The notes under the pieces: model-generated | Database searches by the model: none | The model's input: only the letters and a program-made list of their open reading frames with translations | What the model was told of the DNA's origin: nothing | NCBI GenBank assembly: GCA_000010565.1 | Contig: AP009389.1 | Coordinates: 2,170,001 to 2,234,000, forward strand | Reading direction: 5' to 3' | Length of the DNA stretch: 64,000 nt | DNA from: Pelotomaculum thermopropionicum SI | GTDB taxonomy: Bacteria; Bacillota; Desulfotomaculia; Desulfotomaculales; Pelotomaculaceae | In this document: positions 40,405 through 42,676 of the stretch, piece by piece | Numbering within the stretch: the first letter of the stretch is position 1 | Layout of the letters: every line of letters begins with the position of its first letter | Position numbers and translations under genes: made by a program

Positions 40405-40453
40405 TTACCGCAGGAGCTGGAGGACTCCCTGGGGCTGCTGATTGGCCTGTGCT
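40405..40453 (-). CDS. fliC: Flagellin exon 3 (C-terminal 16 codons)
   Basis: Read on the minus strand this encodes [15 protein letters not shown] followed by TAA, the invariant flagellin C-terminus. The exon begins with one base (A) that completes the leucine codon CT-A begun by exon 2. It has no start codon or ribosome site of its own and is followed by the strong terminator. Confidence 0.9.
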
Positions 40454-40809
40454 CTGCCGGCCCGCCGGCTTTCGCCGGCGCCTAGACTATATCTTCATCC
40501 CGCTGCCTTGCAGCGGGAGCCGGGTGCTTCGGGCGCCTCCAGGCGCCCTACGGGCTTCATCACCGTACCGTTGTGACGGCCTCAGGTGGTATGCCCTAGT
40601 CGTTGGACCTTCCCCAGCCTTTCGGCACAGGGGCTCGGCTGCTGGTTGCCCAATCCCTCCATTTTTCAAACCTTCACGTCTGCCGTTTCCGGCTGCGTTG
40701 TGGTATGAAGGGCTCTCAGGGTTTCCCAGCAATTCACCCGGTGATACTCCCGGAAGTTGCCCTCCGGGACGCCTGTGGTCCTTGCCCAAACTAAGCGGCC
40801 AGGACTTCA
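40454..40809 (-). ncRNA. Group I intron 2 in flagellin (356 nt)
   Basis: The minus strand shows the four conserved group I core elements in order: P element GAATTGCTGGGAAAC (40721-40735), Q element GCAACCAGCAGCC (about 40637-40650), R element GTCCAACGACTAGGG (40594-40608), S element GAAGATATAGTC (40485-40496). A P9 hairpin with GAAA loop follows. The intron starts after ...ATGCT (last exon base U) and ends in G (omega-G) at 40454. The guide GGGCAAGG near its 5' end can pair with the exon end GCCATGCT with one mismatch and a U-G at the splice site. No homing endonuclease frame. Boundaries were set by restoring the flagellin protein. Confidence 0.88.
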
Positions 40810-40874
40810 AGCATGGCCTGTGCGGCCTGCTGCAGGATGCTCATCTTGGTGTACTCCATCATTTCTTTGGCCAT
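40810..40874 (-). CDS. fliC: Flagellin exon 2 (65 nt)
   Basis: Encodes [21 protein letters not shown] plus two bases of the next codon, the conserved flagellin D0 helix that joins exon 1 (RDVD) to exon 3 (AQANQQ). It starts at ATG, but no ribosome site precedes it; the preceding base is the omega-G of intron 1. Without splicing of intron 2 the frame would read on as LEVLAA and stop. Confidence 0.9.
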
Positions 40875-41233
40875 CGTCGCCACAACAGGTTTCCTTGTTG
40901 ACCAGACTATATCTTCACCCGCAGCGCTCTTATTGAGCCTGTTCGGGGCCGGGCACTTCGAGCGCTTTTTGGCGCCCTACGGGCTTCATCACCATACCGC
41001 TTCGCGGCTGCAGGTGGTATGCCCTAGTCGTTGAACCTTCCCCAACCTTTCGGTACAGGGGCTTGGCTGCTGATTGCCCAATCCCTTCATTTTTCCAACC
41101 TTCACGTCTGCCGTTTCCGGCTGCGTTGTGGTATGAAGGGCTCTCAGGGTTTTCCAGCAATTCACCCGGTGATGCTCCTGACCGTTACCAGTCAGGACGA
41201 CTGTGCCTTGACAGCCTAAGCTGCTTCGGCATA
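40875..41233 (-). ncRNA. Group I intron 1 in flagellin (359 nt)
   Basis: Same core order as intron 2: P element GAATTGCTGGAAAAC (41149-41163), Q element GCAATCAGCAGCC (about 41065-41078), R element GTTCAACGACTAGGG (41022-41036), S element GAAGATATAGTC (40905-40916). It begins right after ...GTAGAT and ends in G before ATGGCC. Most of the core is nearly identical to intron 2, while the 5' guide region, the P2 hairpin and the P9 hairpin (CAACAAGG-AAA-CCTGTTG) differ. The guide/exon pairing is weaker than in intron 2 (GTCAAGGC against GCGTAGAT with mismatches), so the 5' splice site is less sure than the protein-based join suggests. No encoded protein. Confidence 0.88.
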
Positions 41234-42676
41234 ATCTACGTCGCGGATGCGGGATTCGGCAGCACTAAGGTTTTCGGCGGACGTTCCAAGGTTATTTATG
41301 GTGTGCTCCAAGCGGTTCTGGTAGGCACCTAACTTGGAACGCTCTGCAGACACAGTTTCAATAGCATTCTGAATAACTGTTATAGCAGCATTCGCAGCTG
41401 ACTGTGTTGAAACGTTAATACCGGCTTTGGTGACGGCATCGGCAATTTTTTCATTCCCGCTGAATGTAGCTGCTGAAGCAGCATCCGTAGTAACACTTAC
41501 AACGATTTTATCATTTACGCTGTCAAGGTCTGAAAGGGCTTTACCTGTATCCATTGTAATAGTAATACCTTGGTAATTGCCGGAACTTACAGTGAATGAA
41601 GTTGCTGTTTCATCGGTTATTGTCACTACTTGAGAAGTTGTGCCATCACTGACTGTAATGTTTTTACCAACAGCATCTGTACCTGTAGCAGAAGCTCCAG
41701 AAGTAAAACCGAAGGCTGTATCAATACCGGCTGTTGTAGTACCAGCTATAGTAATTTTAACTGAAGATGTTGAACCTGTAGTCGCAGATTGTATGGTTAA
41801 CTTTGTTCCATCGTTTGAGACAGTACCTGCCGCTCCAATCGCAGTTTGTAAAGCATTTTGTAAATCTGTAATTGTTTTACCGGCGCCAGTTGCACTTTGC
41901 AAAGTAGTTTGATTCAAAGTATAATTTGTACCATCAATATTGACTGTTAACGTTGCATCCACTGAGATACCAGTCAAATCTGTAGTTGGAGCAGCAGCAG
42001 CACCAGTTAAACTTGCAGCTGTTGCTGCTGAACCAGCGCTATACTGAAAAGTTATTGTGGCGCCATCTACAACTTTAGCACCTAATGTATCCCCAAATGA
42101 TGCCGTATCAATATCACCTTGCGTTGTCGCAGAAGCAGTAACTAAGTCTCTAGATACGCCCAGTGATTTTGCATCCATCGCATTAATATTGATGACCAAG
42201 GTTTGAGAGGCATTAGCGCCAATATGGAATGTAGCCTCCCCAAGACCAGTACTCTTAATCCCGCCGTTCAACAGAGTCTGAGTGTTAAACTCAGTATTAT
42301 TGGCTATACGAGTGATCTCAATTGCCAGTTGGTCAACTTCTTTCTGGATTTCCGCACGGTCAACAGCTGTATTTGTGTCGTTGGCCGCCTGCACTGCTAG
42401 CTCGCGCATGCGCTGCAAAATGGAGTGGGTCTCATTGAGGGCACCCTCCGCCGTCTGAATCATTGAAATGGCATCCTGAGCATTTCTCTGCGCCTGATCC
42501 AGGCCGCGGATCTGACCACGCATTTTCTCGGATATTGCCAGCCCCGCCGCGTCGTCTCCGGCCCGGTTGATGCGCAGGCCCGACGACAGCTTCTCCAGCG
42601 ACTTACTACTAATGGCGTTGTTGTTACTCAACTGACGATAAGTATTAAGCGCCGCGATGTTGTGGTTGATCCTCAT
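41234..42676 (-). CDS. fliC: Flagellin exon 1 (481 codons)
   Basis: Filament protein, N-terminal and central parts. It opens MRINHNIAALNTYRQLSNNN with the LSSGLRINRAGDDAAGLAIS signature, followed by a Thr/Ala/Ser-rich variable domain (about 160-400) and the C-terminal coiled segment up to SRIRDVD. The open frame continues six codons into intron 1 (YAEAA, stop at 41216). Splicing to exons 2 and 3 gives 518 residues. ATG 42676 has GGAGG seven bases upstream; the frame upstream of it is non-coding leader. Driven by a sigma28 promoter and probably repressed by CsrA. Confidence 0.95.

Follow-up and report, generated by a model that had tools for sequence, protein, structure and literature searches.

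Group I ribozymes residing in flagellin genes have been described in thermophilic Bacillus and Geobacillus, according to passages of PMC3984707, and the same passages present group I introns as ill suited to bacterial protein genes, where coupled translation disturbs the folding of the ribozyme. In a second known system, that of the ssrA/ClpXP degrons, a protein is marked by a C-terminus of the type ...YALAA-COOH, ...LAA or ...AA, which is added by trans-translation. The DNA analysed here, a stretch of 64,000 nucleotides from Pelotomaculum thermopropionicum SI (contig AP009389.1, positions 2,170,001 to 2,234,000; hereafter the window), holds a flagellin gene that is split by two group I introns, at insertion sites called A and B, and the reading frame that enters each unspliced intron ends within a few codons in two alanines. 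These tails resemble ssrA tags, and we consider it likely, from sequence evidence, that they provide for intron-encoded disposal of unspliced flagellin at both sites; splicing in vivo, translation of the unspliced mRNA and degradation of its product are the parts of this proposal that we infer.

The locus shares a group I ribozyme in flagellin with the introns of thermophilic Bacillus and Geobacillus and adds to them the A and B pair and the tail pattern, a comparison made here through reviews. The flagellin tail differs from the ssrA tag in being written in the intron, from which it would be appended by normal translation of unspliced mRNA. Thus equipped, the flagellin intron seems to carry a remedy for its own truncated product. 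A literature search returned no paper on Pelotomaculum together with a group I intron, and no title on an intron-encoded degradation tag, most subscription journals being outside its reach; the novelty of such a tag is provisional. If the proposal is true, a coding sequence of some 5 to 8 residues joins a ribozyme to ClpXP, which would help to account for introns becoming common in flagellin, a very highly expressed gene. Database entries may then describe certain flagellin genes as truncated, perhaps among them that of this model syntroph, whose flagellum has been studied for its role in partner signalling and whose fliC and fliD transcripts rise in coculture (both from passages of PMC6046458).

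Two group I introns in the flagellin gene

The uninterrupted flagellin frame runs on the minus strand from an ATG at 42676 to a stop at 41216 and would yield 486 residues unspliced, without part of the C-terminal helix; the missing part is encoded downstream in two pieces. Joining the exons (Table 1) gives one frame of 518 residues with a normal flagellin C-terminus, and the match to the Flagellin_C profile rises from 59.5 bits over positions 1-54 for the unspliced frame to 104 bits over positions 1-86 of 86 for the joined protein. Skipping from exon 1 to exon 3 would break the frame, exon 2 being 65 nt, and the terminator hairpin starts 5 bases past the flagellin stop codon. The original prediction, made from the letters of the window, had given its coordinates correctly, including the stop at 41216; its gaps of 359 and 356 nt, each ending in G after an exon ending in U, its restored frame of 518 residues and its terminator 3' of the last piece (hairpin 40399-40364) are likewise borne out.

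Both introns match Intron_gpI (RF00028) of Rfam on the minus strand over model positions 1-253, with E-values of 1.8e-16 for intron 1 and 5.6e-13 for intron 2 and scores above the gathering score of 50 bits, as the original prediction had expected of a covariance-model search. They are the only matches in the genome at E 0.001. Insertion sites in flagellin were defined by the protein sequence around them, site A being RDVD|M, site B AM-L|A (within a split codon) and site C, known from other genomes, MLA|QAN, 4 nt after B. In an alignment of 21 site-A and site-B introns, a structure of P2-P9 with the P3/P7 pseudoknot is paired in 98.0% of 1552 cells, compared with 32-46% in slid versions, a control that somewhat favours the structure because this was named after the consensus fold had been viewed. 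Changes on both sides are seen in 41 of the 74 helix pairs; the cells with double changes number 247 against a shuffled mean of 74, and P7 of the pseudoknot is 100% paired, 2 of its pairs showing double changes. One of five covariation measures, that of further pair types, gave no excess (83 against a shuffled mean of 79.4).

The splice sites follow the group throughout. In the first set of flagellin introns described below, every exon has a terminal U and every intron a terminal G at all three sites (59/59 each), and the U-G pair at the splice site is present in 39/39 A and B introns, a G that the guide search pattern already required. Guide position 2, at which the pattern left G or U free, forms A-U in 27/27 site-A introns and C-G in 12/12 site-B introns, and unconstrained folds show the same P1 helix in the site-A introns. 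Because of the covariance-model matches, the exact restoration of the frame and the pairing and covariation of the helices, the conclusion that two group I introns split the sole flagellin gene found is well supported. Open reading frames of at least 60 amino acids that overlap these introns, of 359 and 356 nt, were judged by eye, not by searching, to be chance frames; by the same inspection neither intron appears to be a mobile intron with a homing endonuclease or an IStron.

The genome of the window is a single contig of 3,025,375 bases, in which the Flagellin_N and Flagellin_C profiles each match at two places. The second, at 48260-49162 of the window, encodes a protein of 300 residues beside a FlgK-like open reading frame and is FlgL, judged by eye from that length and that neighbour. 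FlgL aside, these profile searches found no second flagellin gene in the genome, which answers the check for another complete flagellin that had been proposed with the original prediction.

Table 1. Elements of the split flagellin gene, with positions counted from the first letter of the window
Feature	Position	Strand	Details
Flagellin exon 1	41234..42676	minus	481 codons, ending ...SRIRDVD (..GTAGAT); Flagellin_N 162 bits
Group I intron 1, site A	40875..41233	minus	359 nt; RF00028 72.5 bits at 40883-41203
Intron 1 in-frame tail, proposed ssrA-like degradation tag	41216..41233	minus	TAT GCC GAA GCA GCT TAG = YAEAA-stop
Intron 1 internal guide sequence	41197..41201	minus	GUCGU; bases 1-3 pair to ..GAU of the exon end, with a U-G wobble at the splice site
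Flagellin exon 2	40810..40874	minus	65 nt = 21 codons + 2 nt
Group I intron 2, site B	40454..40809	minus	356 nt; RF00028 60.9 bits at 40463-40775
Intron 2 in-frame tail, proposed degradation tag	40791..40809	minus	(CT)T GAA GTC CTG GCC GCT TAG = LEVLAA-stop
Intron 2 internal guide sequence	40769..40773	minus	GGCGU; five-position pairing with exon end AUGCU
Flagellin exon 3	40405..40453	minus	49 nt with stop; completes Leu, then 15 residues
Intrinsic terminator	40364..40399	minus	15-bp stem; 3' of last exon; fold z -8.3

Flagellin introns in other genomes

Group I matches at E 0.001 were found in 17 of 113 genomes of the window's order, in 36 of 398 of a phylum-wide draw and in 196 of 397 of the order to which genome G493 belongs. 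Many of these matches fall in flagellin genes, at sites A, B and C. The first set comprises 27 A, 12 B and 20 C introns, and 10 of the C introns share their gene with an A intron that precedes them. The second sample combined 29 new loci with 80 regions, chosen almost strictly by rank among the best-ranked matches (of the 196/397 matched genomes); it skipped matches beside those already sampled and repeated copies in G502, and the flagellin motif was matched by 75 of its 109 loci, in one case (L251) apparently by chance. A further 55 distinct A introns came from it, together with 42 introns apparently at site C. A last exon could be recognised for 39 of the latter, at least two of which (L261 and L273, which repeat L041 and L039) were already present in the first set; no new site-B intron was found in the second sample. 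Flagellin introns were recognised by a flagellin motif together with an intron core motif, and those with unusual cores were thus missed. The counts exclude a site-B intron of genome G062 in an orphan fragment, the truncated remnants at L019 and L023, three apparent second introns (L187, L194 and L242) whose last exon could not be recognised, and any A intron that repeated another over the first 120 nt.

Two introns in one flagellin gene, which the original prediction had taken to be rare, proved to be frequent in Bacillota in the form of A and C pairs. A second intron with a recognisable last exon follows 10 of the 26 A introns outside the window in the first set and 23 of 55 in the second, in which 23 of the 39 C introns sit behind an A intron of the same gene. 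Among loci of named thermophile genera, two of Parageobacillus (L040 and L093) have introns at A and C and one of Anoxybacillus (L072) has an intron at A. The combination of A and B is confined to the window among the sampled loci.

An Ala-Ala tail on the unspliced frame

The original prediction had read the in-frame stop as a mere interruption and had missed that the frame entering each intron carries a conserved Ala-Ala tail. In the window, YAEAA, with E before the Ala-Ala where a hydrophobic residue is usual, and LEVLAA both have the C-terminal Ala-Ala of ssrA-like tags. In the first set, Ala occupies position -1 in 27/27 and position -2 in 26/27 site-A introns, the 26 tails from outside the window reading YALAA, YAEAA, YAKAA, YAFAA, YVLAA, YALAAA, YDLAAA, YVLAAA and, once, YAFVA. 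All 12 of the counted site-B introns end in Ala-Ala; the other 11 read LEVLAA, LEVPAA, LEGIAA, LEEIAA, LERMAA, LDEMAA, LEVRWAA, LEAPAA and LEGLAA. The tail sequence played no part in finding the introns at either site.

Before the second draw it was put on record that tails should end in Ala-Ala, or failing that in Ala, within some 5-7 codons. Of the 55 distinct A introns that this draw supplied, 50 end in Ala-Ala and 53 in a final Ala; one Ala-Ala tail is longer, at 8 codons. In both sets together, Ala-Ala is present in 76 of 82 distinct A introns, with six near-variants, and YALAA is the commonest tail (46/82). The four Ala codons GCT, GCC, GCA and GCG all occur in the tails, as do the stops TAA, TAG and TGA, and tails with extra codons still end in Ala-Ala (YALAAA, YDLAAA and YVLAAA in the first set; YDLIAA and YALAASAA in the second).

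Group I introns outside flagellin served as controls. In thyA-like, nrdE-like and dnaE-like genes, named by eye as were all control hosts, the upstream frame likewise runs into the intron and stops there, often close to the 5' end. In contrast to the flagellin tails, those of other genes (QLYQR, GGSR, GGSRRGK, SLCQ and others) are not Ala-Ala, with the exception of one (VRKDAA) among 36 in-frame tails. These 36 are 27 kept of 34 and nine kept of 18, the remainder having been left out by eye (L218, L228, L269, L277, L279, L285 and L289 from the former; L108, L124-L130 and L132 from the latter); wherever a left-out control had a readable tail, this did not end in Ala-Ala, and some kept ones (e.g., L021 and L195) may read an intron-encoded endonuclease instead of the host exon. 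The difference between flagellin tails and controls has a Fisher p of 2.5e-24, which is descriptive only, the introns being related. The codon-position pattern set out below points to a tail conserved across Bacillota at the amino-acid level.

tmRNA tags were obtained with ARAGORN for comparison. That of the window's genome is AKENYALAA, for which ARAGORN reported a match with the P. thermopropionicum tag. Tags were returned for 21 of 24 other carriers in the first set and for 15 of 24 in the second, all of them ending in Ala-Ala; 12 of the 49 tmRNA loci had no ARAGORN gene and hence no tag. The tag of one other carrier, ANNDYALAA, ends in the same six residues, DYALAA, that site-A introns of other genomes read. 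Two genomes with the tail SAA have tmRNA tags ending in SLAAA, and one with the tail YSFAA has a tag ending in YSLAAA, a partial likeness. Copying of the tail from the host's own tmRNA is not supported, as the variants of the intron tail do not track the tags. ClpX is encoded in the window's genome (684 bits), and in Streptococcus mutans AVAA and short C-terminal motifs serve as ClpX signals (a passage of PMC10782952).

Several observations weigh against the interpretation of these tails as degradation tags. Five of the 55 new A introns depart from Ala-Ala (LAS, SVA, LVA twice and LAV), and the tails LVA, LVA, LAV, LAS and SVA contrast with tmRNA tags ending in FALAA, FALAA, FALAA, LAVAA and SLAAA in the same genomes. 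The site-A tails of the window and of four other genomes of its order read YAEAA or YAKAA, not YALAA; since the third residue from the C-terminus matters in ClpX recognition, the tag may be weak in this genome. LVA- and AAV-type ends are weaker tags. The site-B intron of G062, which lies in the orphan 3' fragment outside the counts, has the tail LEVLAK and ends in Ala-Lys. Four more control tails end in a single Ala (IA, VA, VA and SA), two of them being the dnaE-like LIA and LVA deep in the core; next to such controls, neither VA nor SVA would be distinctive by itself. Kinship between the A and B introns means that their tails may not have arisen independently. The tail is part of a hairpin at both sites, which means that RNA constraint contributes, and the last Ala codon of the A introns is partly paired (0.66, 0.54 and 0.10 at positions 1-3). 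Finally, the guide pairing of the site-A introns is short, position -4 pairing in 10/27 and position -5 in 0/27.

Proposed route of disposal and a possible temperature switch

In the proposed mechanism, two group I ribozymes, each with its own guide sequence, would excise themselves from the flagellin mRNA, and the spliced mRNA would give normal flagellin. The leading ribosome probably reaches each intron before the intron is complete. Within an unspliced intron it would read 5 or 6 extra codons and stop at the loop of the P1-extension hairpin, and P1 would be able to form only after the ribosome had left. The resulting truncated flagellin would keep its N-terminal part without the end of the C-terminal helix and could harm export or assembly; its Ala-Ala end (YAEAA or LEVLAA) would hand it to ClpXP-type proteases for removal.

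A different role for splicing, compatible with this route, is that of a temperature switch, in which splicing would be efficient only when hot, flagellin would be made only then and the tail would keep the off state clean. This idea, considered at the level of the intron itself, is possible without being probable. Temperature-dependent ribozyme activity has been reported for flagellin introns of thermophilic Firmicutes (passages of PMC4853749, after Hayakawa and Ishizuka, 2012). The host species, as its name suggests, is thermophilic as well. However, similar introns are present in loci of Halobacillus, Oceanobacillus, Sporosarcina and Rossellomorea, genera that are not known to be thermophilic.

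Coding constraint and RNA pairing

A rather improbable alternative to the degradation tag regards Ala-Ala as a by-product of the RNA fold. The P1 extension would need a GC-rich hairpin, GCNGCN would happen to be read as Ala-Ala, and the stop would serve only to keep ribosomes off the ribozyme core, a role that reviews suggest for group I introns in general. Such introns are known to contain in-frame stops (PMC3984707, in the passages cited above), and many of the control introns likewise stop near their 5' end. Folds of 90-nt pieces predict the tail to lie within the P1-extension hairpin, with the stop codon mostly in the loop, in both A and B introns; codon -2 is predicted to be paired at 0.78-0.98 at both sites and codon -1 of the A introns at 0.66 and 0.54 at positions 1 and 2.

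Pairing accounts less well for what varies within the tail. In B introns the last Ala codon is predicted to lie in the loop (mean pairing 0.15, 0.18 and 0.06 at positions 1-3), yet its first two positions do not differ at all (0.00 and 0.00) while the third differs in 65% of sequence pairs. Codon -2 of the B introns is paired at all three positions (0.98, 0.90 and 0.78), yet only its third position varies. The 12 bases, or four triplets, past the stop vary at all positions, in a count made from the stop without alignment, to which length differences add. The retention of Ala-Ala in tails with extra codons, the changing identity of the stop codon and the occurrence of Ala-Ala in only one of the 36 control introns also speak against a by-product. 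Because all four Ala codons occur and the last Ala codon of the B introns lies in an unpaired loop, an amino-acid constraint laid over the hairpin fits better than pairing, the argument being weaker for site A because codon -1 is partly paired there. Selection at the amino-acid level was judged from the codon-position pattern, the loop position and the extra codons, without a formal substitution-rate test.

An alternative C-terminus at site C

Site-C introns belong to the same superfamily as the introns of the window and lie at the same gene end, but carry a whole alternative C-terminus and no tag. Their first 14 codons, with the stop that follows, duplicate the flagellin C-terminus of the last exon. 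Summed over the 20 site-C introns of the first set, the intron and last-exon copies differ at 85 nucleotides in codon position 1, 25 in position 2 and 159 in position 3, and on account of this distribution both copies look as if selected as protein. C introns without a preceding A intron were recognised partly by the full C-terminus before the stop, and its completeness there is by construction; behind an A intron, where a full tail was not required on the intron side, one is present in 10/10 of the first set and in 26/26 candidates of the second. Full alternative C-termini were seen at L005, L107, L109, L030-L032 and many other loci. Spliced and unspliced site-C messages would both give full flagellin. 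In a broader reading, which we favour with somewhat less assurance than the disposal of unspliced flagellin at A and B, a widespread family of bacterial group I introns would have evolved coding answers to its own failure to splice, namely an ssrA-like destruction tag at A and B and a substitute C-terminus, giving two isoforms, at C, the ribozyme having co-adapted with the protein quality control of its host.

Descent of the introns

Intron 1 of the window is 90-95% identical to four site-A homologues of the same order, and intron 2 is 84-89% identical to four other site-B introns. Within the order, the five A introns are 89-95% and the five B introns 82-95% identical to each other, compared with 77% between the two introns of the window. 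All 12 B introns form a single clade (12/12 tips, support 0.996) and so do the 20 C introns (20/20, 0.999). When the tree is rooted at its midpoint, B clusters with the A introns found in the window's order and in three other genomes, and C clusters with A introns of the Bacillales type; new sites may thus have been colonised within the gene by A introns with a changed guide sequence.

The middle of intron 2 is A-like, reaching 97-98% identity to intron 1 in sliding windows over alignment columns 101-185, where it is at most 84% identical to other B introns. Because of this likeness to intron 1, gene conversion between the two introns is suggested. The same patch might be taken to mean that intron 2 is a recent tandem copy of intron 1, which is very improbable: over its whole length intron 2 is closer to the site-B introns of other genomes than to intron 1, the 12 B introns are one clade, and a conversion patch in an old B intron accounts for both patterns. 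Recent tandem duplication is thus disfavoured because each intron belongs to a site-specific lineage. Least probable of all is a decaying, silent locus with the filament made from another gene, for the plain open reading frame does lack part of the C-terminal helix, but the exons, splice sites and terminator are intact, no other flagellin was found in the single-contig genome, and a dead gene is unlikely in view of the reported upregulation of this species' fliC transcripts in coculture (a passage of PMC6046458).

Orphan 3' pieces of flagellin genes, containing an intron that is either whole or truncated, were seen at L014 (G062), L019 (G018) and L023 (G055). The first adjoins an uninterrupted flagellin gene and the last lies about 3.1 kb from an intron-bearing one; such fragments hint at recombination of flagellin ends. 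As for carriage by phages, two viral contigs bearing flagellin were found, neither with the intron core motif.

Neighbouring genes and other group I introns

The segment directly downstream of the flagellin gene, 36246-40285 on the minus strand, holds a reverse transcriptase of 1046 amino acids (PADLOC Drt1a 96 bits, UG6 88 bits) and a separate nitrilase gene (RTasNitrilase 196 bits); the two are a candidate DRT system for defence against phages, set among flagellar genes. A c-di-GMP-I riboswitch (63.5 bits) is located at 31300-31437 on the minus strand, between FliD and an apparent FliF gene. Between flagellin and FlgL/FlgK there are small nucleotidyltransferase-like open reading frames (45703-46616, minus strand) and a transposase-like one (46929-47768, plus strand), which we take to be of the REP-associated type.

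In the order of G493, group I introns beyond flagellin are present also in thyA-like, nrdE-like and other genes, identified by eye. Introns in dnaE-like genes were seen at L016 and at L024 and L021, two matches about 1.2 kb apart on one contig of G105; two in-frame tails of dnaE-like introns end in ALIA and ALVA. Short group I introns of 188-203 nt interrupt an apparent tRNA gene with a CAU anticodon loop, as judged by eye, at L009, L010, L013 and L015, all in one family of the window's order.

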